DNA of 64,000 nucleotides from Sacculina carcini (Eukaryota > Arthropoda > Thecostraca > Sacculinidae): the NCBI GenBank assembly GCA_916048095.2, contig OU696591.1, positions 1,100,001 through 1,164,000 on the forward strand, written 5' to 3'. Positions 10,600 through 57,404 of this stretch are shown here, in pieces. Every line of letters starts with the position of its first letter. Position 1 is the first letter of the stretch. A program made the position numbers and the translations under genes. The notes under the pieces are model-generated. The model ran no database searches, was not told the DNA's origin, and saw nothing but the letters and a program-made list of their open reading frames with translations.

Positions 10600-11700
10600 A
10601 TGAACTATTCTCGCGCCGGCCTGGCCGACGTGTTGCTCGGCGGCGTCGATCACAATATGCCGGGCAATGGCGGGCCGTTTTGTCGCGACTTTTTGTCGCC
10701 CACACAGAAGCTGGTTGAGTCGCTTGTCGGCTGCTGTTTGAGTGTGTTGTACACGGTGTGGGGTCTGGCCCGCATCAAATGGCCGTCTCCGACACACGGC
10801 GCCACACAGCCCGCCTCGTCAGTACGCCGTATTAATGTCTAACAAACTGTGCTTCTTAACCTCAGTGGGAATCACTGCGATTTAGCGTTATTTTCACACC
10901 AAACCAATCATGATATATGACTTCGATGTTTACGATCAATGCCAATCAATTTATTTATCATTTATTTAGATTAACTGAATAATGACATGAGATTGGTTTA
11001 TTTTTTATTTTGGTTTATCTTCCTGTTTCATTTTCATTGTTTCATTCTGTTTCACTGTTTCATATGGTCTGACAGGCCGGTGCGCCTCTTAAACACCAAT
11101 TATCATCATCATGAACTCAACAAGCTCCGTTCATGCATTCATCGAACCCCTCGTGGCTGGACAAATATAATGCGATTTTCCCTTCGAAGATTAAAGCGTT
11201 TATTCAACAAGATACTGTATTAGTGTGCTAATTGTATCCTGCACCGTTGGCGCACAATATCGCTGTGCTCAAACAGCAAAAACAACTAAACATGAGGGAG
11301 CAGATATCAGTCATGTGTTGTGTCATGCATTCTGGGTCCTCTCTAATACGTCTTTCGTCCTTGTGGCGTCATAGCGTGGAGAGGGTCGGTTCTGCGGTGA
11401 CAGCGAGCTGCACGGGGCACACCTGTGTGTGTTCATAAGCTTCGGCTTGTCCCCGTGTAGTAGCTGTCACTTGAGGCCTTTAAGCTTTGATTTCACATGC
11501 GTAGGGGACCAAACCGCCGAACCCTTGAAATCCTGGGGTTTGATCGACTCGCTGCTTTCAATTGCCTTCAATTTTTCTGGAAGACGTTTATAACTGATCC
11601 ACTGATCAACTGTCTCACTTCTGGTCGAGTTTTGTTCAATCTATCTCGCCTCTCTGAGTCACTGTCAAATTGTACCATAAACCCCAACTAATTAGCCTAG

Positions 11701-39581: not shown

Positions 39582-42500
39582 CTAATGCGCCTCGCCCTTC
39601 TTACCGGCCACGCGCTGGAAGTCGCTCATGTTCACACTGGCCACAGGACTGCCGAGGAACTCCAGCCGGTCGATCCGGGTCGTGTCGGCACCATTCTGGT
39701 TGTCGGCCACGAACAGCTGCACGCCACTGACGCGCTGGAACTTGACGTAGCGCAGCGGAACCGGCCGTCCGTCCAGCTGTTCCGGCTGCAGTATCAGCCG
39801 CTGCGTCGGCTCCACACTGCCCGCCGAGTCGAAATCCAACGTGTGCGGCCGATTGATGAACAGGCTGAGCGTGCGAGGGCCGTTTTTGGCGCGACACAGC
39901 ACGCGCACCGAATGCAACTTGACCGGCTGGTTGAACGTCAGAGCGATAATCAACTGTTCATCACAGTCCGACTCTAGGAAGTCTCCTGTGCCGGTGCTGT
40001 CCTCTGGCGGACACGAGGAGAACGACTTGAGAGCGGCACTCAGCTGATGCTCGTCAGATTCGTTGAGACACTCGCACTGTGCCGTCTGCACGTAGCTGCC
40101 CAGGTGCACGTGACCGGGCACGAGACTGTCTGTCTCTGCCTCGCCTGGCGTCTCCTCGTCGCCGGCTGCCTCCCGCGAGGAAGAAGAGGCGAGCACTCGC
40201 AACTTCTCCTCCAGGGCGGCCGTGTTGGCCCCCTATATCACGCGCCATCAGCACACACACACACACACACTTAAATTCACTAGCTGCCAAAATTTAGGAC
40301 GCTAAAATGTTGCTATCATTAAATTGGTGATAAATAGGAAGACCTTCACTTTCAACATCACGTGAAAAAGTGAGTTGTCTGAATGTCAATAGAGATAGTC
40401 GGTTTGTGTTGTGTGAAGTTTTTGTTTTTCTTGTGTTTCAGGCGTTAAAACTTGTGGCGGATTCTTGAGTACACTGACATTGGGTGTGAATTCATATAGC
40501 CTGTTTAAAAGGTACATTCATATAAGATCAACGTTTTTAGCCGAACAATAACACACACCTGAAGAGAGTCAATTTTCTGACTGTTTCTGAAGAACAGAAA
40601 CGTGGGCATGGCACGCACAGAGTACATCATGGCTGTGTCGGCACACTGGTCTACGTCCACCTTGAGAAATATCACCTGACACACACACACACATACATCA
40701 AGTACGGACTGGGAGGGGTTTAAGCTCCCGAAAATGTACCACGCCTGCTGAGCCCTTCACTAAAACATTTTGACCATGAACATCTGGAGTGTCATGTTCG
40801 TCATGTTTCGCTAAGCCCCCGCATCTTTTACCTCAGCCCACCCACCGGAAAAATCCTGGCGCCGCCACTGGTTCTTCCCATTTCAAGTTGCTGATTGATT
40901 TCAATAATAAAATTAATTGTAATAATTCAGTTACTGCACCCTTTTTCAATTGGAATTGGATCAGTGTAGATTCAAGTAATTTGAGGCGTAGAATTTTGCA
41001 TAGTAGAGTTTAGCAGTGTGTGTGTTCAGTTTCGCGCAACCAATTGCATTGCTGGTAGCAAATTATCTCACAAAACTATTAAATAATTGAATATTGAACT
41101 ATTGAATAATTACGCTGGAGTAATTTAGACGTTTCAGTGGCATTTGAAGGGTTGATAATTTACTGCCGGCGCATTAAAGTTCGCAGTTTTAATTCGCTCA
41201 AATTATGTTTGGAACTAGTCGCAACAATAAATAATTGTCCAGATCAAAGTGCTATTTAGTGGGCCAAAATAGAAACAGTTGATGTAGTTTGATGGTATAT
41301 TGACATCTCGGCAATAACGATATGACCAATTTGACCAATATTCGGATCAAATCAGGCCATCGAAATATATTACGAGCTTCAGATGGTCGAGCTCAGTAAT
41401 GGGTAACGTCGAGATGTAGTTACGTTTCGGCATCAAGGCGCTGCATTTTCTGCTGGATCTGCCGCCGTCACTGCTTCACGCACGTGGTCGAGATGAAGCC
41501 GATCTTGTGTCTTGAATCCCCGTGTTTCACCTCCGATAAAAAAACCTCCACCTTCCGGGGCAACCGTCCTCATATTTGATGGAGTCGTTGGTTTCTAGAG
41601 CCGTGGATTTGCCCCGAAAACAAGATCTCTGACAGTAGTGATGGTAAGTAAAGCCGCTGCCACAATTCATCTCCTCGTCCTGTCTTCACAACTTGAGATT
41701 ACGGCGAATAATAAGATGTGAGTCCGGATATGTCACCTTCGAAGTAGACAGTGGTCATAACTCGTTGAAAAATTGAAGAAAACTGAAGAGTTGAGGAAGA
41801 TTGCAGAAGGCCAACTATCTTATTCCTATATGTCTCCAGATTATTTTCTATGATGGTGTCGAAAGATAGCGGAAGTTTAGTTTCAGTTTTGGTCAAGCTA
41901 TTGTAGTATTTCGTTGCCAAGGAGTTTTTGTATTTCGGTCACGTCTTCCGGTCGTGTAGTAGCAGCCTGTTTTGATACAGCAGCACCTTATTTACATATA
42001 CGCGGAGGGAGCACCGGCGCCGATGTACTCTCTCCTCTGGCGTTTCCCGGACAATCACGAGACATGTGGCCTACCTTGGAGCACGATCTTCTTGGGCATT
42101 GTCTGCTGAAATGACCCACTTCATTGCACGTATAACATTTGTTCCCAGTCCTAGATGCGGTCGACATTCGTGCAGTAAAACAGCTCTCATCCCTTGACTG
42201 ATTCATTGCTCCTTCTTTGCGTTGCAGGGCCATCCGCGCTCTAACCACGACGTCGTTTAGAGTGAGCTTATCGGCGGCTGCACCCGTTTGAATCATTGCC
42301 GCTATATCGCTCGGTAATCCCGTTACAAAGGCACACTCAAGCAATTCATCACTAACCCCGCCGAAAGAGTCTGCCAACACTTTCAAACTGGACAGAAATA
42401 CATCTACCGATTCACCTGTGTTCAATGGATGATTTCTGAAGCGCTCGAACGCCAAGTATTTATCTATGCCAAAAGCACCATACAGCGCGGCTCGAGTCCG

Positions 42501-45500
42501 TTCAACACTTCGCCTATCTTCAGCCGATAAATGCGACCACACGTGGAATGCACCCTTGGTCAGTCGTAGCGGCATCACGCTCATGACTGGTACACACTTC
42601 AACTCACACAGCATCACCGCCCGATTCAACCATTCTACGACATCGCCGGTGCCGTCAAACTCTGGCACGAGTCGGACATCGAAACTGCCTGCTGGCGACA
42701 CTGCGGTCTGCGCGATATCCGCTCATTATTCCACGTTTTGCAAACTACGTCAGAAACAATGCATCAGCTACATCCCGTATCAATGAGCACTGAATATTCG
42801 CGAGAAAGTCACGAGGGGTCTCTTCTGTATAGCAGAATAGCAGATGTCTACAGGAAATACGGGAGTTTCAGCCTGTACAATGAAGTGGTAAAGTTCCTGA
42901 GAGCGGGTCGTAATGACCTTGTTGAACACGGCAATGACTTCGCAAATGTTTGCAAACTGGTGCCCTCTCTTGCGATTGCCGTCGTCCTTGAGAGCCACGA
43001 ACGTGTCATGAAGCACACGTTTAGCCAACATATGCGCAAGGCTGAGCGATGGATTACCCGTACCAATATCTTCCGCTATATGATGTCGCCAGTGGGCACA
43101 GACACAGAGGCGAAGATGCGACTTGAGGTAAGTGGCTTATGGAAGTCATTCGGGTTCCGAGTGGTGGATTCGCTAAAGACGGCATGCGATCTGCGGGAAC
43201 GGATGACTGAAGTACCAATCGTGGATGAGCAAGTCACTCTAGAGACAAGGAACATGTTCCGCAAAGTATTTTGCAAAGCTTTCTTCTCGAGACATAGCCG
43301 TTGGCCTCGTTGCTTGATGTTGCCTGGGATACGTGCCGACATTGAACGCTCCGTCCGAGAGAACAAGTGGCTGGAGACGAGCGCAGGTGCCTGGTCCTCG
43401 TCCGATTACGAGATGATCATCCTGGAAAAGAACCTTGTATATGACTATACAACTGATATGTCAGAACTCCTAACTGACAAAGCGATCTGCACGGGTGGCG
43501 ATGACACCATCACCAACTTAGACTGACAAGCACACTTCACGATTCATGGTATCCGAGCACCGCTGAGGAAAGGCAGGGAGAGCCGAGTACTGAGCAAGTA
43601 CTTTTGTGAGGCGAACCTTTCAGTCAAGGAGGTTTTGGCGCACATCGAAGACGGAGACATTCCATACGAGTGGCGCGTGATGGTTGGAATCATGAAGGAG
43701 CAGGAGGCGAAGATAGAGAACGCTCGGTGCTTCTGCAAGCTCACGCAGGAGCTCCGAGTCTATCAGACGTCGACCGAGCGAAACATCGCGAAGAGCGTGT
43801 TTCCCTACATCCGCGCCCAATCAATGACCATGAGCGAGAAAGAGCTGTTGGACACACTGTGCTCGATGACTGCCCCGTTGATGACACCGGTAGGGACAGA
43901 TGTTGAACCCAAGATGCGGTTGGAAGTGAGTGGGCTGTGGAAGTCCTTTGGATTCCCAGTGGTAAACTCGATCAACACGGCGGGCGACCTTCGTGACAGA
44001 ATGACAGAATCCCCCACTGTTGACGAGAGAGTGGCACTTGAAACTCGCAACATGTCCCGGAAGATCTTATGCAGGGCCTTCTTTTCTCGACACAACAAAT
44101 GGCCGAGGTGTCTCCTCTTACCCGGGAAAAGGGCTGACATCGAGAGATCCGTCAAAGAGAACAAGTGGCTAGAGACCAGTCAAGGAGTTTGGTCGTCTTC
44201 GGACTTCGATCTTTTGATCCTGGAATAGAACCTGACATATGATTTCACTGCGGATATGTCGGAGTTGTTAACTGATAAGGCCATCTGCACTGGCCGCGAC
44301 GACTGTATCACTAACTTTGACAGACACGCGCACTATGCAATCCATGGAACACGCGCACCTCTGCGGAAGGGTCGTGAGAGCCGTGTTCTCAGTAAATATC
44401 TTTGCGAGACCAATCTATCCGTCAAAGACGTGTTGCAACATATTGAGAACGGGACAATTCCATATGAGTGGCGCATCATGATAGGCATAATGAAGGAAAA
44501 AGAAGCCAAGATAGACAATGCCAGGTGTTTTTGTAAACTTACACAGGAGCTGAGGGTGTATCAAACTTCCACGGAGCGTAACATCGCCAAAAACATATTT
44601 CCATATCTAAGAGAACAATCAATGTCCATGAGCGAGAAGGTCCTGCTCGATATTTTGTGTACGATGACTGCACCGTTCGGGGCTGACGAGCCTAAGTATG
44701 GCTTCGTCAGCCTTGATTACTCGAGGTGGTGTCTGTCAATGTCACATGACTCCTGCGCTGCACTATTCGTCGAGCTTGATGCACTTTTCGGGCTGAAGCG
44801 TGTATTCTCTTTCTCGCAGTTGTTTCCTTACCTGTGTATGGTTGTGTTTCAAGATCGTTTTCGTCCACCCTTGTTTCGGTCTGATGAGCCAGATGATGGT
44901 CCACTGGTGTGGAGAGCCCCGACAAGATGGATGGAGGGGATGAGGCAGAAGGGCTGGACTCTCCACACCTAGTGTACCATCCTGGCAGTGGCAGAGGAAC
45001 GCGGGACAACGGCGACGCTGTTGGGCCAGGGCGATAATCAGGTGATCGTGATCGAGATCCCTGCACCTCACGTCCTTGATCGCCTTGGTCAATCAGCGTC
45101 GGACTTTGTTTCGGCATTCGTGATGAGTTTGGCAAGTAGATCGGCTCTCCTGGGTATGACGCTGAAGCCCGATGAAACGTGGCTGTCGACGGTGCTATTT
45201 GAATATAGCAAGGCCTATCATTTCAGAGGCGCCGCCGTCAGCTCCGCGTTGTAACGGGCTTCACGCGTCAACTCGGAAAGTAACGACGGCATCCGGACAT
45301 TTTCCAACAGAGTTTCATCTTTGTTTTCTTCGGGCGCGACTGTTGCTGGTGTTGATTACTTTCCGAACAGCGCGTATTTGTTGACATTGATAGAGTGATC
45401 AGACGTGCTTTACGATGAATTCTGCGACTCATGGGCCGAGGAGGACGTATGCGCTCTGCTGTCAGTCCCTGCATGCGTCGGAGGCCTACCAGTTATGCTC

Positions 45501-48500
45501 TTTAGCGACTTTCGTTTTCGGGGCAAGACGGATTCGCTCTCCGACTGTGTCTCATGGTTGTCTTTTGTGGCACAAGCCGATCGTGACTTGTTTTCATCGA
45601 TTTCTCGCCTGATCGATTTGACGCCATCACCACGGCGTGACTTGGAATTGCTACTGCTCAATCCATTTGCACTGAATCTCGGGGTCCCTCACACGGCGGA
45701 GAACGTCATCCGACGTCGTGTGAAGGAGGACCTTCCGTTGATAGTGAGGAATCCTGACATCGAAAATCTTTTTTCAATCCACTCTGCACAGCAGCGGAAG
45801 GAGTTGATCTCAGACCTGCCAACCATCACTCCGTTCAATCCGAGAGTGGCTGCTAACCTTTTCAAACTATCTAATGTCGCCCTCAGCGATAAGGTGGTAG
45901 GACAGTACAGCACATCTCGTACTGTCCGGCAGACTCTCGAGCGGAGTGAGGGTACTGATATTTCTGAGACGGACTTCCGCCAGATGGTGGCTGCCATGGA
46001 TGAAGGACTTATCACATATATGCGTACCAGGCTGAATCACACAGACTCTCTGCTGAGAGAAGAGTCGTGGGGCAGAAGTATGGAGGGTGTCACCATGCCC
46101 TGCACCACGGAGCAGTGTCTTCTTGCCAGGTGGGACTCAGAGATCATCGATCCCAGCCGGTCGATACTCATCACGGTCGGCGGATCATCGAGCAAGTTGT
46201 CTACTCGCGGTCCACACAAGCCATGCGTCGGCTCACTCACGACAATGCGAACACGCCGATCGAATCTAGCTATTATTGATAGCACTTCGATGGTTTCCTC
46301 TCTCAAACAAATTACTGACATGCTGTCTTGGGTCGTTGGAGACGATTCTCATCTTGCAACTTTACTCCTCAGAATGTGCTCTGAGAAGACAACAGTCAGT
46401 ATCAACGATCTCGTGAAAGTCACACGGAAAGTGGTCGGTGGCTCTGTCCAGCACCGGTTGCTTGACGACTCCTCGTCCCACGGTGCAATGATCAACTCGT
46501 TGTACAACTTCTGTACCCATTGCACCGTGGTGGCTGACACAGCCATCAAGTTCGCCAAGCAATCGACCGACTACACGTTGTGCTTTCAGGCGTCGATCTT
46601 GTATGGCCTATCTCGACTATGTCTGCTTGAGGCAGAGAACATCGACACGTCTGGCAAATGGGCACTCAGTTTTAATTGCCCCGAGTGTACCGTGGAGGTG
46701 GGGAGGTCGAGCTCTGATCTCCCTGAGCCTCCGAGCTATACCGGCCTCTCTCTCGGTATGCCAGTGACTGAGATTGCAGTAAGCGGCACAGATAACACTG
46801 AAGATCGGGAGATTGTCGACGCTAGCACTGGTCTGGCGTACTACATAGCAGACAAATGGACTACACATATGACACAGTGGGAGAGTAGGCACCTCCAGAG
46901 TGTGGATGTTGGTTCGCAGCCTTCGGGACTGCCGGGCTTCGTCAACCTGAGAGAGACGTCGCTCATGGACCTTGATACGTGTATCCATGGAATGACGCTT
47001 TACCTGATAGAGCAGGTAGGTGAGATACCCAGAGCGGTATCGCTGATCAGTCGACTCTCACCTTTTGCAGTCGAAGACTCGCCAACGAGCCAGTTTGCAA
47101 GAGCTGCTGTAATGAGTGGACTCAAACACCCACTGCTTCAAGTTACCAACAGACCGGGCGGAACGGCGGTGTCTCGCAACGCAGCATCACTGACTCGACG
47201 TCTTCTTCGCTTGTTCTCGGAACCTAGCAGGCTCCTGAATTACTTATTCTTGCCCGCTCATTACACGTCTGACCGCTTTTTGTCGTTTTCACAAACAATG
47301 GAAGGCGTTATGAAACTACCAGCGAGAGCTGTAAGGCCTGGTTGCTTGGAAGATCAGTCTACGTACATCCAGGCTGCTCGTTCGCGTGGAAGACCGACAC
47401 TCAACAAAGTGACAGGGGTGGTTCCTCGTATCCGCGCCTTTGATAATCGATGGTTGAAACTGGGTGAGGGAAACAGGAACAAGCTCAAGCCGCGACATCA
47501 GGAGCCATTCGCTGACGCGAATATTGCATGGTGCCTTGGATCAGAGGAAAGGTGCTCGCACGACCTGCTGGCAATTCCCATTCCATGCGCTCCTAGGAAA
47601 ATTGTGAGTTGGCTTGACAGGTCTGGCGAGTGCTACGCTGCCCTATCGCACAGATTTGCAGATCTTGCCCCAGGAATCGTGGTGTTGCCACCCGGCCGGA
47701 TCGAGAGCGCAATAGATGTAAACATTGAGCCGTGTGCTGTGAGAGCGGACTCATGTGGGCTGTTATTGGATGTTGCAGAGACGATGAGGTGTAGTCTCAC
47801 TCAGCAGTTACCGGTTTTGAACTCTACAGACTTATGCGTCTCTTGTCAAGTACAAGGGTGTTTGGGCTGTAAATAGACTGGGGGTGCCGTATGGTCCCAG
47901 ATGCCGGTACACCCCATAAACACAAATAACGAACGAACGAACGAATATTCGCGAGAATCATACCCCTAGACTAGACCAGCAGACTAATACTACACTTGAT
48001 CTTGTCACCGGCCACCAATTTGAGTCGTTGTGCGTGAGGAAGGATTGTTTCAAGTGGAAGAGGCTCAATTGTCGATCAAATTATCCATTGTCGACATCAT
48101 ATTGGATAGAATGGTGTTAAAACATCTCATTCGGTTTTGAAGTCCTGAAAAGAAGTTGTTCAAAACTCCCATGCCTTTCTCCATTGAAGCATTAGGTTCT
48201 TGTCTCTCAGGTTGACGTGAAGGCATTGCCGCACAGTTTTGAGAAAAAGATGCATTTCTTCGCAGTTTTTGTTGGTCCGCGTTGATCTTTCGTAGTTGGG
48301 CTGGCGTCAGACCGTATTTGTTGCGGTTGTTTCGCACTGGGCCCATACTAGTGTTAATTTGTATAGTGTTCTGGATACACATTGTGCGGAGAGCATAACG
48401 CAGCGTGTTCAGCGTCTCCTCGTAATGCTTGTCCTCCTGACTTATGGTAGCTACCATGGCTGTCAGGCTGTTTCCGCCCAGCGAATCTTGCAACAGCCGG

Positions 48501-51417
48501 GTCAACTTGGAGTCACGATACGGCACGTGCTTTCGACCCTGCACCAGCACCGAAATAACATTTCCGAGCGCGGTCAAACTAGTGTTTATCGCGATAGCGT
48601 CGCGCTCGTTGTGTTTTGTTTCTTGAGTCTTGCTGAGCCGCTCCGAGCCAGCAAGATCGACCAGATGAAGTTTTCCTACTCTGGTCTGCGTGGTGCCGTC
48701 GACTTCGCTCATTATTCTCTGTCGCACAGTGATTATGAGAATGGTGTGCGACCTCGAGCTGCGTCGGTTCATGTTAGTGGCGGATATCTTTCGGCGTTTA
48801 TTGCCCTTCCTCAAGTGAATGTTGACCTCGTCCAAAGTTTGCACCGTATGCTTGGACAAGTGTTTCACTTGGACACCCTGACCTTTCACGCTCATAATGT
48901 CCAAATTTGTATTTTGCTGGAGCAGGTCGCTGATTCTTTCATTATAAATCTCCAGGTAGGAAACGTCAACGTCATATTCCACGTTCGCTGGAGAATGGGC
49001 TATTTGTTGAAAAATATCAGCCAGCGAGTGTTGCACAATCCCCTTGCTGGCTCTCTTGCGGCTGTCCCCGGTCATGGTGTAGGTCTTACCGGATCCTGTT
49101 TGACCGTAAGTGAATACGGTGCCGTTGAATCCGTCCATGACACTTTGCACGACGGGGCGAGCCATCCGGATGTAGATTTCATGTTGTCCGGTCTGTGATG
49201 GGAACACGGTGTCGAAGTTGAATGTTCTCGACACATTGTCACTGTCTGCAGCTTGACGTCTGGATGGTACTTGTAGTGTTATGGTATTGAGGTGTGGATC
49301 TGCAGAAACCACTCCCTCAGTTTGACCCTGTTGCGCTTGCATAACGCAAACAGGTTTCACACGCACTGCAACGTTGACTTTACTCTGCATGTTGACACTT
49401 TTGCCTCTTGAAGTTGCTTGATTGCGTTGCTAATACTCAGAGAGTAAGCACTGGACCATCTTGTCAGGACAAGCGATGCAATGGAAATGAAGTCAACATA
49501 GAGATTCAGCTGTACATTTCTATTCGCATTTTGCCGAGAAAAATATACAGTCAAATTCACGTGACAAGCAGCCGACATTTCCCGCACTTGATCGCTTATT
49601 AGACGAATTTCTGCTTATTGCTGTATTATTGCGATTTTAACTGATTTTTTTCGTGACTGCGCCATCATTCGTGCTCAAGACGTCCTCCGAGCGACTTTAC
49701 TGTATGCATGCTCTGGATTTATTTTATTTTTACAATTCATCTAGCTTCTGGACGGGTGTTTTTCTCCACATAACAAATTGTTTTTGATCAATTTATGCTG
49801 TTATATTTGTGGCAGGTTATTGAGAAATTATTTCGTCTTGTTCTTATCGGCCTGGCAAAACTGTACAGTCCTGCTTGTTCATTGCTGCATTCCAGAGTAT
49901 TGGTACAGTCTGTGACTATTTGTTACACCTGACATCTTTTATTGCCTGTAGTCAAATGGAAATATCATTTTGATAGATATTTTTACAAATATTATTATTA
50001 TTATTAATTACGGGCAAATACAGTAGCACGGGAAAGAGTGCAAGCACTATTATCACCCTGCGGTGGTCCCATGTGTACTGGAAGCGCACAGTAGATGTAG
50101 AGAGAAAGAGAGTTCGAAAAGTAAAGCTTTAGCCAGGAAGATGAAAACTAATAAATAATCAGAAGAAATAAATGATGAATTAAATGAAATTATCAGATAA
50201 AAAGGCCAGATAAAAGTGTATATACACCATCGTGCAGCACACTGATTAAGATAATATATTAACACAAAAATTAACTAGAGCCGTATACTAATAATTAACA
50301 ATACAATAAAATAAATAAATAAAACTAAAAGCCAGACAATCAGTAGAAGTCATTATGTTCAACTCAAGTGAGATCATGAGTTTGTGATGAACCCAGCTAG
50401 CATGTGTCTGTCAGCGGTTAACATTTTCACCAGCCCACTGTACATTAACTAATACAAATACTATGAGCGACGACATTATACACCAACTGCACTGTGTGAG
50501 TGTTGGTGCATGTGTGTGTTAATGTGTGTGTGTGTGTTAGTGTGTGTGTTAGTGTGTGTTAATGTGTGTGTTATTGCATGTGTGTGTTAGTGTGTGTGTG
50601 TGTGTGTGTGTTATTGCATGTGTGTGTTAGTGTGTGTGTGTGTTAGTGTGTGTGTGTTATTGCATGTGTGTGTTAGTGTGTCAGTGTGTGTGTGTGTGTG
50701 CGTTTGCATTGCGTCTGTCTGTATTGTATTGTGTACATGTATTTGTATATGCATGTATGTGATTGTACGTGAATGCTTGTATGTTGTGTGTGCATATGTG
50801 TGTGTGTTATGTGTGTGTGTAAGTGTGTGTGTGTGTTAGCGTGTGTGTGTGTTAGTGTGTGTGTGTGTGTTAGTGTGTGTGTGTGTGTTAGTGTGTGTGT
50901 GTGTGTTAGTGTGTGTGTTTGTGTTAGTGTGTGTGTGAGTTATTGCATGTGTGTGTTAGTGTATGTGTGTTAGTGTGTGTGTGTATGTGCTAGTGCTAGT
51001 GTGTGTGTGTGTGTTAGTGTGTGTGAGTGTGTGTGCGTGTGCATTGCGTCTGTCTGTATTGTATTGTGTGCATGTATTTGTATATGCATGTATGTGATTG
51101 TACGTGAATGCTTGTATGTTGTGTGTGCAATGCTTTCATTATCGCAATGGAGACATTATGTGTGAAGTGCGCTTTATAAATGCTCTGATAGATGGAACAA
51201 CTGAAAACTGTGTGTGTTAGCGTGTTAGTGTGTGTGTTAGTGTGCGTGTGCTGACGTCAGGATATTGCGCAGCCAGACGGGCAAACACAGGTGCCACGTG
51301 TTGACAAGGCCCACACCAGGTAGCCGTGAAGTCGACGACAACCAGTCGCGAGCCGGCGGCCGTCAACTCCGTCGCCAACTCGCCGTCCTGCGCCAACTGC
51401 CGCACCGACATCGTCAC
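39582..51417 (-). CDS. TXNL1: Thioredoxin-like protein 1 with PITH domain, three exons
   Basis: Minus-strand exons 51256-51417, 40559-40675 and 39582-40232 join in phase to 930 nt, 309 residues plus stop. Residues 1 to about 105 are a thioredoxin fold with the redox-active WCGPC motif ([11 protein letters not shown]) and the cis-Pro loop AMPTFLFF. The C-terminal PITH (proteasome-interacting thioredoxin) domain has [32 protein letters not shown] and [11 protein letters not shown]. The protein ends [16 protein letters not shown], as expected for TXNL1. The protein docks on the 26S proteasome regulatory particle and acts as a reductase. Intron 1 spans 10.6 kb and contains a gag fragment, a viral polymerase insertion and a kinesin gene. 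Both acceptors are preceded by sense-strand (TG)n. The start codon could be 51415-51417 or the next Met at 51409-51411. Confidence 0.95.
40700..40871 (-). mobile_element. CAGTGGCGG-type element copy in TXNL1 intron 1
   Basis: In complement the right edge reads CAGTGGCGGCGCCAGGATTT, followed by GGTGGGTGGGCTGAGG and GGCTTAGCGAAACATGACG. This is the cleanest copy of the family also seen at 24637 and 34992. It sits just upstream of TXNL1 exon 2 and has no coding capacity. Confidence 0.6.
40872..41987. other. TXNL1 intron 1 sequence, unassigned
   Basis: AT-rich up to about 41400, then mixed. Because the gag fragment at 41988-42701 runs leftward, this could include remnants of the rest of that retrotransposon, but no protease, reverse transcriptase or LTR is recognisable. 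Confidence 0.35.
41988..42701 (-). pseudogene. LTR-retrotransposon Gag fragment with zinc knuckles
   Basis: A 237-codon open frame has a Retrotrans_gag-like helical domain ([20 protein letters not shown] and [19 protein letters not shown]) and a C-terminal zinc knuckle [15 protein letters not shown] second knuckle follows immediately, but its first cysteine position is Arg ([14 protein letters not shown]). The family is Gypsy/BEL-like Gag, the nucleic-acid-binding structural protein of virus-like particles. No pol gene follows, and no ATG is found at the 5' end of the frame (it opens at GTG), so I read it as a partial, probably dead copy. It is in the same orientation as TXNL1 and begins about 90 bp from the left edge of the viral insertion. 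Confidence 0.85.
42792..42806. repeat. Target-site duplication of the viral insertion, left
   Basis: GAATATTCGCGAGAA here is repeated exactly at 47943-47957. The two copies bound the viral polymerase sequence and its tail. Confidence 0.88.
43083..43880 (+). repeat. 798-bp polymerase repeat, first copy
   Basis: It corresponds residue for residue to 43881-44678, with an offset of exactly 798 bp (266 codons). It covers the pre-RdRp block through premotif A and includes the TGA at 43524. It is preceded by about 90 codons of L sequence not found elsewhere in the window. Confidence 0.92.
43881..44678 (+). repeat. 798-bp polymerase repeat, second copy
   Basis: This copy leads directly into motif A, so it is the one collinear with the rest of the polymerase. 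Over the first 60 aligned codons I counted 16 identical, 30 synonymously different and 14 amino-acid-changing codons relative to copy one. It contains the TAG at 44226. Confidence 0.92.
47943..47957. repeat. Target-site duplication of the viral insertion, right
   Basis: Exact second copy of GAATATTCGCGAGAA, reached directly from the (AACG)n tail. Confidence 0.88.
47951..47982 (-). pseudogene. 5' half of a tRNA-Pro-like sequence
   Basis: On the minus strand the sequence contains TCTAGGGGTATGATTCTCGC, which matches the D-loop through the 5' side of the anticodon stem of eukaryotic tRNA-Pro. The preceding CTGGTCTAG is a partly duplicated start. No 3' half is present on either side of the viral insertion, so this is a tRNA-half remnant and not a gene. 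Confidence 0.55.
48065..49390 (-). CDS. Kinesin motor protein, intronless
   Basis: The 441-residue protein is almost entirely a kinesin motor domain, which walks along microtubules using ATP. Visible elements are the P-loop GQTGSGKT (residues 96-103), switch [11 protein letters not shown] (206-215), switch II DLAGSE (245-250) and the microtubule-binding loop [19 protein letters not shown]-4-type motif VRVKP is at residues 9-13. After about residue 345 comes a short neck and tail with no long coiled coil, so the protein is much shorter than most kinesins (often 700-1,400 residues). The motor is divergent; KIF3- or KIF4-like placement is possible but unproven. It lacks introns and is nested on the same strand in TXNL1 intron 1, suggesting origin as a retrocopy. 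No poly(A) tract or target duplication remains. All key ATPase motifs are intact, so it is probably functional. Confidence 0.88.
   Translation of the reverse strand: MQSKVNVAVRVKPVCVMQAQQGQTEGVVSADPHLNTITLQVPSRRQAADSDNVSRTFNFDTVFPSQTGQHEIYIRMARPVVQSVMDGFNGTVFTYGQTGSGKTYTMTGDSRKRASKGIVQHSLADIFQQIAHSPANVEYDVDVSYLEIYNERISDLLQQNTNLDIMSVKGQGVQVKHLSKHTVQTLDEVNIHLRKGNKRRKISATNMNRRSSRSHTILIITVRQRIMSEVDGTTQTRVGKLHLVDLAGSERLSKTQETKHNERDAIAINTSLTALGNVISVLVQGRKHVPYRDSKLTRLLQDSLGGNSLTAMVATISQEDKHYEETLNTLRYALRTMCIQNTIQINTSMGPVRNNRNKYGLTPAQLRKINADQQKLRRNASFSQNCAAMPSRQPERQEPNASMEKGMGVLNNFFSGLQNRMRCFNTILSNMMSTMDNLIDN
49391..50500. other. TXNL1 intron 1, upstream of the kinesin gene
   Basis: AT-rich non-coding DNA that should include the kinesin promoter. 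Nothing specific is recognisable except an (ATT)n tract near 49990-50008. Confidence 0.4.
50500..51250. repeat. TG repeats in TXNL1 intron 1
   Basis: Two long TG-rich blocks with GTTAGTGTG and TTATTGCATG units share an internal stretch containing GCATTGCGTCTGTCTGTATT (50706-50785 and 51041-51130), a segmental duplication of about 80 bp inside the repeat. Confidence 0.88.
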
Positions 51418-53868: not shown

Positions 53869-56800
53869 GTTGTTGTTGTTGTTGTTAAGCACTTCGGCCG
53901 AATTCGACCATTTCGCGCATAAACTGTCTTATGTCAGCACTGTCATATGTCTAGTCAACGTCGTATTCAGGCAACGAGGCTTGGGCAAGGAGCTGCCCAA
54001 TGTAAAAAGGATGCGACATTAAAGAATGAAAATAAAATGTGGGAACGTTCCAAAACGATATGATTTTAGAACAATAGTTACACGTCTCTCGGATGCAGAG
54101 AAAAAAAAAATTATATTGCACTGTCCAGGCCGGATTCACGGAGAAACTCGAACATCAATCTGTATATCTCAGGGTTTTCTGAACCCAGAATTGTGCTGAG
54201 GTTCGGGACCAGTTGTTGGCTCGCTAAATACCGTAGAAGTGAGCGGCGCTGCCGCCTATAACTCACGCAATGTATGAGGACATGCTCGACCGTGAGAGGG
54301 GAGCTGCATTCTATGCAAATTGGCGGAGGTAATCTATCAATCAGAAAACTATGCGTTAGTCTAGTGTGCCCAATTCTCAGCCGACCCAACAGTCTCTCTT
54401 GTCTCGGGGAGATCGCTGCTGGCGCCGCGTGGGGACCCATCTGACCAATTACTCGTCCGAGGGCATATTGTGGTCTGAATTGGTTCCATCGTTCTCGGCA
54501 ATGCATAAGCACTTTTTGGTCCACCAGCGAGTACACTAAGCTCTTACTGAACGGATACTGCTGTATTTGTACCTCGTTCAGGGCCATCTTTGCCTCTCGA
54601 TCAGCGCGCTCGTTTCCCGGAATGCCTTTGTGAGCTGGAATCCAGACAAATTGACATGATTTACCCACACTTTTCAAATGATGGAAGCTGATTAAAATAT
54701 GACGATGAATAAAATCCTGCGATGATATCTGTGAAATATGTTGTAGAGCGGACTGCGAATCCGAAAAAATGATAGTGCTACTGAAATTGCACGATACTAC
54801 CAACAACAGGGCGCGATAAATGGCGTACAATTCCGCGTGAAAACATGAAACATATGATGGCAGGCGGTACTTGAACACTTGTTGAGGTAGCTGAGGCGCA
54901 TTTGAGACTACTACAGCGCATCCTGCCCTGTCACCCATCTTTGAGCCATCAGTATAAATGTGGGTACAGTGACTTTGCGTGCCTGTAAATTCGGTGCACC
55001 GCGACCGCACCTCCGCATCGGTGACGGACGCTACACTCGTTGTTATGTAAGAGATATGCGGGAGATCCGTCATCCAGGGCGGTGTCGGTGTAAATGCGCG
55101 AATACACGATGGAATGGATACACCCAGATTGTTGATATAATTATTGACCCGTCTACTAAATGAGCACGCTAAAATACGACTACGAATGGAGTGTGAATGT
55201 TGGATGTCGATGTCATTAAAATTCATCATCGGTTTTAGAATATGATTATGATCGATAAAAACTTTCATGGCGTATCTGAGAGAAATTTGTATCCTCCTCA
55301 GGCTTAGAGCCGGAATGCCGGTATAGGCCCGAAGCGCCTCCACCGGCGAGGTTCTGTGAGCACCCGTGATAATACGCAGACAATCGTTTTGAACCGTCTC
55401 AAGTCGGTGGAGCACTGACTGACTAGCCGCAGAGTAAACCTGAACGCCGTAGTCCATGACGGGCAGGACCAGTGTCCGGTATAGTCGCCTAAGCACCGCT
55501 TGGCTACCCCCGGCAAAACGATTGCCCGCAACTACGCTTAGTATGTTTAGGCGCTTCAGACATCTAGCTCTTAGATATTCGATATGGCTGTGCATATTTA
55601 ACGTTCTGTCCAAAACAACACCGAGAAAAGTGTGAGATGATTTTTGTGGCACCTGTTCACCGGCAAGGGTTAATGCCTGATGGGACTTATGACCGTCGAC
55701 CGAATAAACCACTACAGACGACTTACTAGCCGAAAATTTCAGCCTGTTCCTGCCAGCCCACTCAGAGAGTAAATCGAGACTTTCCTGTAGAACATGCATA
55801 ATATGGAAAATGTCGTCGCCCTGAAACCAGATCGCACAGTCATCGGCGTATAATGAAAATGAGACACATGCTGGCAATTCATCAAAAATATCATTAATCA
55901 TGAGGTTAAAAAGCAGAGGCGAGATGCAGCTACCCTGTGGCAACCCTACAGATGAAATGTGCCAATCCGATAAAACGTTGTTGAGTCGCACACGGAAGCT
56001 TCTCTGTCCCAGTAAAAAATTTCTCAGATAAAACGCCATATGCCCACGAAAACCCATATGAAATAGTTTATAAATGAGTATTTGAGGAATGACCGAGTCA
56101 TACGCGTTCGAGATATCCAGGTAGACCACCACCGTACATTTTTTCTCAGCAAAACCCATACGTATATGCTTTTCGAGCCGCACCACTTCATCCATCGCAG
56201 CGCAATTGGGGCGAAATGCGCTTTGGTGGCCGTCCAAAAGGCTATGGCGTTCGATCAGATGAGACAACCTGTGGGTGACCATGCGCTCGAGGAGTTTGCC
56301 GAGGCAACTGGTGAGAGTGATAGGTCGGTACGAGGACGCGCGCTGTTTAGTCTTACCTCTTTTCAGAATGGGCACTACCGTGCTTTGTTTCCATAGCTCG
56401 GGGAACGAGTGTTTTGTCCAGACTTGATTGAAAAACGATAAAATATGGTGTTTAAAAGATGTGGAAATGTGTTTAAAAAATAGATAATGAATGCCGTCCG
56501 GCCCCACAGAAGTGTTTCCGGTTTCAGCAATAGATCTCTTAAGCTCGTGAATTGTGAAATTGTTGTTATACGGCATGTGATGACTAGAAACAAATGCACA
56601 TGGCGGGATGAAGGATCGAGATTGTGTAGTGCCACATGTCCCCGCACTATCGTTCACTCCTGAAGTGACCGATTGGAAGTGCCCGGCCAGTGCGTTGGAC
56701 ACATCCCTCGTGTCGGCAATTATCCGCTCGTCCACGATCAATACAGGAGACCTTTGTTCTGAGGTGGTCCCGTTTAGTTTTCTAATTTTCTCCCAGATTT

Positions 56801-56967
56801 GTGAGATCGGTGTGGATGATGTGAATGAATTTAAAAAAAATTGCCACGAACTAATTTTGGCATTTCTAATTATATTGCGTGCCCTGGCTCTTTCTCTACA
56901 GAAAACAACACGAGTTTCGGTGGTGTTCAGACGTTGGTGTCGCCGCAGCGCTCGTTTTATATAATCG
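53869..56967 (-). mobile_element. 5'-truncated I-group non-LTR retrotransposon
   Basis: The element spans 3,099 bp between perfect 17-bp duplications. On its coding strand the 3' end is a (CAA)n run (plus-strand TTG repeats at 53869-53886), a tail type like that of I-group LINEs. The 5' end is cut inside the open reading frame, so ORF1 and the endonuclease are missing. It inserted between CHID1 and ATMIN. Confidence 0.93.
54111..56966 (-). CDS. LINE reverse transcriptase-RNase H polyprotein, 5'-truncated
   Basis: The frame is open from the truncation point near 56966; the first ATG is at 56739-56741, giving 876 residues. A reverse transcriptase domain has SSYRPITLTSCLGKLLERM, LPQGSCISPLLFNL and the catalytic FSLYADDCAIWF (Tyr-Ala-Asp-Asp). 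An RNase H domain follows with IYTDGSKMGDRAGCAVVV and a later SDSQSAL. The C-terminus has a CCHC-like motif (CIECSSPLTVEHVLIHC). RNase H downstream of RT places it in the I/Nimb/Ingi-like group. The apurinic endonuclease that should precede RT has been lost by truncation, so it cannot retrotranspose by itself. There are no internal stops, consistent with recent insertion. Confidence 0.93.
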   Translation of the reverse strand, partial: DYIKRALRRHQRLNTTETRVVFCRERARARNIIRNAKISSWQFFLNSFTSSTPISQIWEKIRKLNGTTSEQRSPVLIVDERIIADTRDVSNALAGHFQSVTSGVNDSAGTCGTTQSRSFIPPCAFVSSHHMPYNNNFTIHELKRSIAETGNTSVGPDGIHYLFFKHISTSFKHHILSFFNQVWTKHSFPELWKQSTVVPILKRGKTKQRASSYRPITLTSCLGKLLERMVTHRLSHLIERHSLLDGHQSAFRPNCAAMDEVVRLEKHIRMGFAEKKCTVVVYLDISNAYDSVIPQILIYKLFHMGFRGHMAFYLRNFLLGQRSFRVRLNNVLSDWHISSVGLPQGSCISPLLFNLMINDIFDELPACVSFSLYADDCAIWFQGDDIFHIMHVLQESLDLLSEWAGRNRLKFSASKSSVVVYSVDGHKSHQALTLAGEQVPQKSSHTFLGVVLDRTLNMHSHIEYLRARCLKRLNILSVVAGNRFAGGSQAVLRRLYRTLVLPVMDYGVQVYSAASQSVLHRLETVQNDCLRIITGAHRTSPVEALRAYTGIPALSLRRIQISLRYAMKVFIDHNHILKPMMNFNDIDIQHSHSIRSRILACSFSRRVNNYINNLGVSIPSCIRAFTPTPPWMTDLPHISYITTSVASVTDAEVRSRCTEFTGTQSHCTHIYTDGSKMGDRAGCAVVVSNAPQLPQQVFKYRLPSYVSCFHAELYAIYRALLLVVSCNFSSTIIFSDSQSALQHISQISSQDFIHRHILISFHHLKSVGKSCQFVWIPAHKGIPGNERADREAKMALNEVQIQQYPFSKSLVYSLVDQKVLMHCRERWNQFRPQYALGRVIGQMGPHAAPAAISPRQERLLGRLRIGHTRLTHSFLIDRLPPPICIECSSPLTVEHVLIHCVSYRRQRRSLLRYLASQQLVPNLSTILGSENPEIYRLMFEFLRESGLDSAI

Positions 56968-56984
56968 TTGAGATATAATATGTT
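56968..56984. repeat. LINE target-site duplication, right copy
   Basis: Exact second copy of TTGAGATATAATATGTT at the truncated 5' end of the element. Confidence 0.93.
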
Positions 56985-57404
56985 TATTTTGTCTTTGATT
57001 GATCGTAAATGTCAAAAAACGGGTCTCATATTTTCATTGATTGTTACGTAGGCAGTAGTGATGTTTTGGTTCGGTTTTTCGTGTTTGTGGTTGTTTTTTG
57101 TCTTGAGGTTGAAGGTCGTTTTCCATCTTTGCTCAGTTTTAATTTTTTCCAATGAATATTCCCCTGGATAATGGAGTGTGGAAATGTGGTGACTGTGAAG
57201 TGTGGCTATACCAAATAAATGTTTTTGGTTGTATTTTTCCTGTTGAACTTTGTGCCTGGTGCCTGCACTCATCCCATGTGACTGGATTTACCTGTAATTT
57301 GTTTGTTTATATAATTTGCTTGCAATAAATGTGTAATTTCCTTGCCTTTAATATTGTTTATTACTACAATTTTTTCCATAATAAACCGGCAGATTTGCTA
57401 TCAC
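56985..57404. other. ATMIN upstream region
   Basis: AT-rich DNA with AATAAA at 57325-57330, which could be the displaced poly(A) region of CHID1 or unrelated. An upstream ATMIN exon may end here, since CGGCAG at 57386-57391 could be an acceptor. Confidence 0.35.

Follow-up and report, generated by a model that had tools for sequence, protein, structure and literature searches.

Two diverged copies of one polymerase segment within a single repeat-flanked bornavirus-like L insertion of Sacculina carcini

We have analysed a stretch of 64 kb from the Sacculina carcini genome (contig OU696591.1), which is called the window below and whose own positions are used throughout. The window is host DNA, as it has frames with Pfam Kinesin, PITH, SAP/SPRY/AAA_33 and Glyco_hydro_18 domains. 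Between the two copies of an exact direct repeat, it holds an element homologous to the L polymerase of Mononegavirales (Table 1). Pfam Mononeg_RNA_pol or Mononeg_mRNAcap has been found in all six viral pieces scanned, and the best PDB chains are L chains of 1711–1756 residues, which we take to be bornavirus L, the chain names themselves giving no virus; in one search, the same chains were reached only at E 0.06–0.1. In addition, the protein P0006, to which most of the element is closer than to any other relative found, bears Pfam BDV_P40. We presume that the residues GDNQ at 45030–45041 and HR at 46452–46457 are those of the polymerase and of the capping region, respectively. The element starts well inside L, with the first Pfam match at profile position 257 of 1068. 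Overall, we read it as an endogenous bornavirus-like L element.

Table 1 Features of the insertion and of one related stretch in the window. A and B denote the two proposed parent viruses
Feature	Position	Strand	Remarks
Left copy of exact 15-bp direct repeat (putative target site duplication)	42792..42806	+	15/15 identical to 47943-47957
Putative virus A part: L upstream of the repeated segment, present once	42807..43082	+	match to P0007 with 51% identity in 92 residues
Copy one of the 266-codon L segment (putative virus A)	43083..43880	+	stop TGA at 43524
A/B joint, in frame, placed within about 1 codon	43878..43883	+	inter-copy identity ends here on both sides; sequence compared with the other two edges
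Copy two of the 266-codon L segment (putative virus B)	43881..44678	+	stop TAG at 44226
Putative virus B part: remaining L polymerase and capping region	44679..47834	+	Pfam Mononeg_RNA_pol, Mononeg_mRNAcap; P0006, P0005; stops 44970, 45252, 45396
Zone of the L/tail joint	47835..47876	+	P0005 homology ends 47834; L may reach stop at 47874
LINE- or SINE-like 3' end: predicted stem-loop, then (AACG)n	47877..47942	+	fold; partial match to 11063-11100
Right copy of 15-bp direct repeat	47943..47957	+	15/15 identical to left copy
Second stretch resembling the tail, then short ATC run	11063..11100	+	76% identity over 38 bases, E 0.016; weak alone

Two neighbours of the element deserve mention. A Gag-like open frame with two zinc knuckles lies beside the insertion site on the minus strand (41988–42722), and the insertion target may be within an LTR retrotransposon remnant. 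On the other side, also on the minus strand, a single unbroken frame of 454 residues (48065–49429) encodes a Kinesin motor; this gene may be a retrocopy.

Within the element, one segment of 266 codons is present twice, side by side. The preliminary description of this DNA, made from the letters alone, had reported an exact 798-bp offset between the two copies, and they do align without any gap, with 69.7% base identity over 798 bases and 207 of the 266 residues identical. Thirty-five other offsets in the range 780–815 give an identity of 22.6–28.7%. Beyond each side of the segment, the identity between the copies drops to background, which places the edges correctly to about one codon. The earlier count by eye over the first 60 codons is reproduced by our recount (16 identical, 30 synonymous, 14 changed). 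Over the whole segment there are 79 identical, 128 synonymous and 59 changed codons, the last number including both stop positions, and the codon positions 1, 2 and 3 hold 53, 25 and 164 of the 242 base differences, respectively. Presumably, the repeat adds these 266 residues to the polymerase just before its motif A.

We have then compared the codons at which both copies share a residue (n = 192, Met and Trp excluded). Of them, 64 are identical while 67.1 are expected from an independent draw of synonymous codons (permutation P = 0.32 for as few or fewer identical codons). That is, the synonymous sites are saturated and keep no memory of the common origin. The value of pS (0.876) had seemed too high even for this, and the idea of a synonymous divergence beyond saturation has been dropped in view of the same comparison. 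As the synonymous sites are saturated, the best fit of the GY94 model lies at its edge, where the divergence grows without limit and omega tends towards 0, and hence we give no finite dS. Actually, dN between the copies is 0.146, and dN/dS is far from 1 (2 delta lnL = 387 against omega = 1). The 57 amino-acid differences (stops excluded) are also conservative, with a mean BLOSUM62 score of 0.51, while random single-base changes give a mean of −0.45 and a maximum of 0.39 in 5000 draws. Since saturated synonymous sites go together with a low dN, the copies diverged under purifying selection, and they did so before the insertion, as the preliminary description had argued. Nearly all of the divergence should have arisen under selection, and we read it as the divergence of working polymerases in viruses.

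For comparison, 2000 random-decay copies have been simulated, with all 242 changes placed on one copy. The simulated number of synonymous changed codons has a mean of 26.8 and a maximum of 48, as against the 128 seen, and the mean number of stops is 8.1, as against 2 seen. Decay without selection is thus ruled out by the codon statistics, i.e., the saturated synonymous sites, the low dN and the conservative changes. The same holds for a tandem duplication on the host side after the insertion. It would explain why the two copies adjoin, but it is contradicted both by the excess of synonymous changes over all 2000 simulations and by the small amount of decay since the insertion, and we give it practically no credence.

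This later decay can be estimated from the stops. Five of them against 1671 sense codons correspond to ~126 substitutions, or 2.5% per site, on the assumption that every single-base change has the same probability, and this is far below the 30% between the copies. One stop lies in each copy and three lie downstream. Over the 5 kb of 42807–47834, the five in-frame stops are of all three kinds and there are zero frameshifts; all five fall within 43524–45398, and the final 812 codons are stop-free. Five stops without a frameshift in 5 kb make an odd decay pattern, and we count it against the explanation that we favour below.

The relatives of the element come from protein database searches in which the length of a hit had to lie between 0.55 and 1.75 times that of the query, a range that leaves full-length L outside for the pieces queried, and one of these searches scored the best 7994 candidates by shared words. 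Seven proteins have been found, and "closest relative" here means closest among those seven. P0006 (1240 residues) is a relative with a full, single version of the segment. It is collinear across both edges, as its residues 1–309 align to 42969–43895 and its residues 38–983 to 43878–46661. P0007 (247 residues) extends from the upstream part across the left edge and matches only the first half of the segment, and hence P0007 alone cannot exclude a duplication.

These two proteins bear on the alternative named in the preliminary description, namely a virus in which this polymerase region had long been duplicated internally; one RNA of it would then have been retroposed. Copies that are in frame, gapless and both constrained would be expected from such a virus, and the evidence of a whole undoubled segment comes from a single relative. 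Against this, P0006 has one version through both edges and P0007 shows no break at the left one, the repeat puts 266 extra residues just before the presumed motif A, and full synonymous saturation requires a very long retention of both copies. The weight of P0006 is reduced by its being one sequence, itself fused to a nucleoprotein domain. Its match to the window stops at residue 983 in the capping region, and the remaining residues 984–1240 include Pfam BDV_P40 at 1055–1200 (E 4e-11). This L/nucleoprotein fusion may be a second chimera or an assembly error. Overall, we consider an internal duplication distinctly improbable.

How far the two copies stand from each other and from the other sequences has been assessed in two stop-free blocks, with the 31 codons lying between the two stops excluded there and in the trees. 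The residue identity between the copies is 75.7% and 80.5% in these blocks, and their identity to P0006 is 49.6–61.0%. The unrooted trees, built from sequences with no named virus among them, separate both copies from all others, with a support of 100 for 4 sequences and 96 for 6 sequences. The copies are thus closest to each other among the few sequences found, but the divergence between them is long, not short. P0006 and P0007 have the same residue at 87.1% of 124 sites in the first block, which indicates that distinct lineages are present in this clade. Another of the proteins, P0003, is an L fragment of 148 residues on a contig of 77,710 bases, 47% identical to 44688–44969, and is possibly an endogenous copy in another genome. 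Protein scans of viral_contigs with two window pieces, the alignments A2 and A3, and P0006 have given no confirmed relative and no named exogenous one, and a close relative of A alone or of B alone has been found neither there nor among the seven proteins.

The long divergence, the dN/dS and the single-version P0006 together support a mosaic of two related viruses, which was the main proposal of the preliminary description. What is new relative to it is that both copies lie within one repeat-flanked insertion, and that the viral homology yields to a LINE-like tail at the 3' end. The 15-bp repeat encloses both L copies from end to end, has no further exact match in the window, and is the longest word common to the 200-bp boxes at the two ends. 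Among random box pairs from 32.9–50 kb, a shared word of at least 15 occurs in 2 of 1392 (maximum 20), and the longest word shared by base-shuffled pairs is 12 in 1500. We interpret this repeat as a target site duplication.

At the left end, the blastp homology to P0007 begins at the codon that closes the repeat, while tblastn extends the match to 42783, left of the repeat, by seven residues with 0 identical, so that the exact base at which the viral sequence begins on the left is not proven. At the right end, the detectable homology to P0005 stops 108 bases before the repeat, and P0005 continues for another 248 residues. It is likely that L is cut short here at its 3' end, or else L may run undetected to the next stop (Table 1). 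The tail that follows is predicted to fold with −20.0 kcal/mol (z −1.79), a stability also reached by 11 of 200 dinucleotide shuffles, and its (AACG)n run directly abuts the right repeat. With modest confidence, we take these 66 bases for the terminal piece of a LINE family. Eighteen bases of the tail also match the viral contig L001, but this match stops short of the tail repeat and has been set aside as chance. The window also contains a LINE on the minus strand (54111–57011), i.e., a long frame with Pfam RVT_1 and RNase_H followed by an (AAC)n run; as this run takes the place of an (AACG)n tail, the LINE has been rejected as the tail source.

As our evidence is assembled sequence, two endogenous copies might have been fused by an assembly error. 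The matching 15-bp repeats at the outer ends, however, fit one insertion and not two unrelated loci, and at the joint the copies share no identical run long enough to confuse an assembler. We hold such an error to be very unlikely.

Against the explanation favoured below, the joint between A and B itself has no clear microhomology, and it is in frame, which is expected one time in three from a random jump. We have also asked whether base composition marks the two parents. The upstream part has a GC3 of 0.565, copy one of 0.654, copy two of 0.571 and the part after copy two of 0.568. That is, the upstream part is no nearer to copy one than to copy two, and the mosaic receives no support from GC3. 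As GC3 is uninformative and no close relative of either parent alone has been found, it is the overlap that carries the case for two parents.

The preliminary description had further suggested that a reverse transcriptase jumped from the L RNA of one virus to that of a co-infecting relative. The 15-bp repeat and the LINE-like tail point to one retroposition event, and they make such a jump the more likely course. On the other hand, the A/B join could predate reverse transcription and come from a recombinant viral RNA. In that case, a viral polymerase or RNA ligation would have joined the RNAs of two related non-segmented negative-strand viruses by non-homologous recombination, which doubled the segment before the presumed motif A, and a LINE would have captured and copied this one RNA in the germ line. 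All sequence features except the joint with the LINE tail fit this course equally well, and RNA ligation has been proposed as an alternative source of LINE-1 chimeras in the available part of a recent survey (PMC13174262). Against it, the joint between tail and L already needs one switch or ligation, so that a second of the same kind is cheaper, which is an argument of economy and not a test; in addition, three-part LINE chimeras are known, as far as the accessible text describes them (PMC2104539). We regard a pre-made recombinant as rather unlikely.

A double infection would no longer be needed if a related virus had been endogenised earlier and a transcript of that copy served as one of the two templates, and such copies can be transcribed, as the accessible part of the report on eEBLL-1 states (PMC4865735). 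An older copy, however, should show more decay. No such difference is visible, since each copy has one stop. In addition, of the 51 sites in the two blocks at which the copies differ, P0006 matches copy two at 14 and copy one at another 14, while the remaining 23 match neither. An endogenous template is therefore quite unlikely.

Taken together, the explanation that we consider probable is one germline insertion of a chimeric cDNA, made through two template switches from a LINE tail, the L RNA of a virus B and the L RNA of a virus A. A LINE would have started target-primed reverse transcription on a LINE (or SINE) 3' end. The enzyme would then have jumped to the plus-sense L RNA of the bornavirus-like virus B, copying ~3.9 kb towards its 5' end, and from there to the L RNA of the related virus A, landing 798 bases nearer to the 3' end of the L map and copying ~1.1 kb. 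A single integration would have left the 15-bp target site duplication, and the insert would have decayed by point mutation since. The order of repeat, L of A, L of B, tail and repeat is the one expected from target-primed reverse transcription with two template switches, and the apparent tandem repeat would be the stretch that both L pieces cover. This explanation implies that the LINE enzyme, and not a viral polymerase, joined A to B, and that both viruses should have been in the same cell.

In the LCMV/IAP recombinants of Geuking in 2009, a retrotransposon enzyme reportedly switches to the RNA of a non-retroviral virus; that case differs in involving an LTR element, one virus and an experimental infection. 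Closer to the present element is eEBLL-1 of Eptesicus bats, a single-gene bornavirus L fossil which, in the part of the report at hand, is explained by LINE reverse transcription of viral mRNA (PMC4865735). Both are plus-sense L in a host genome with a short flanking direct repeat (15 bp here, 9 bp there). Unlike eEBLL-1, which is one gene with the viral termination signal and poly-A at its end according to the same text (PMC4865735), the present element has two divergent L sequences, no L start, a LINE-like tail and no poly-A. For insect elements, the accessible portion of another study states that there are no features like the mammalian target site duplication and poly-A (PMC2987831).

The tripartite LINE chimeras of Magnaporthe grisea and mouse consist of three RNAs in the same orientation with the LINE part 3', flanked by direct repeats of 14–16 bp and attributed to two template switches, as the available text has it (PMC2104539). 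Of the features given there, the present element shares the flanking direct repeats (15/15) and the common orientation of its parts, with both L parts on the plus strand in one frame and the tail repeat 3' of them. In contrast to those chimeras, two of its three parts are viral, mutually homologous and overlapping, and the LINE part is short and putative: the part that is mostly a 5'-truncated LINE copy there would be represented here by a 66-base tail-like end with one weak second match within the window. The 5' part is not of full length as it is there (PMC2104539), and we describe the element as chimera-like in its working without classing it as one of these chimeras. Among the matches listed in the literature, judged by titles and the starts of abstracts, none describes a viral element built from two viruses, and the main text of the LINE-1 chimera survey, in the part available, has no word starting with virus or viral (PMC13174262).

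Two well separated viral lineages, with saturated synonymous sites and 78% residue identity, are thus met in one insertion. Provided that viral RNA served as template in both cases, the insertion would be the fossil of a germ-line cell co-infected by the two. The element may also be an animal counterpart, lacking poly-A, of the double jump of LINEs that has been described for cellular RNAs, as far as the accessible text shows (PMC2104539). Endogenous viral elements are usually taken as fossils of a single virus, and trees of such fossils can mix two viruses per gene.
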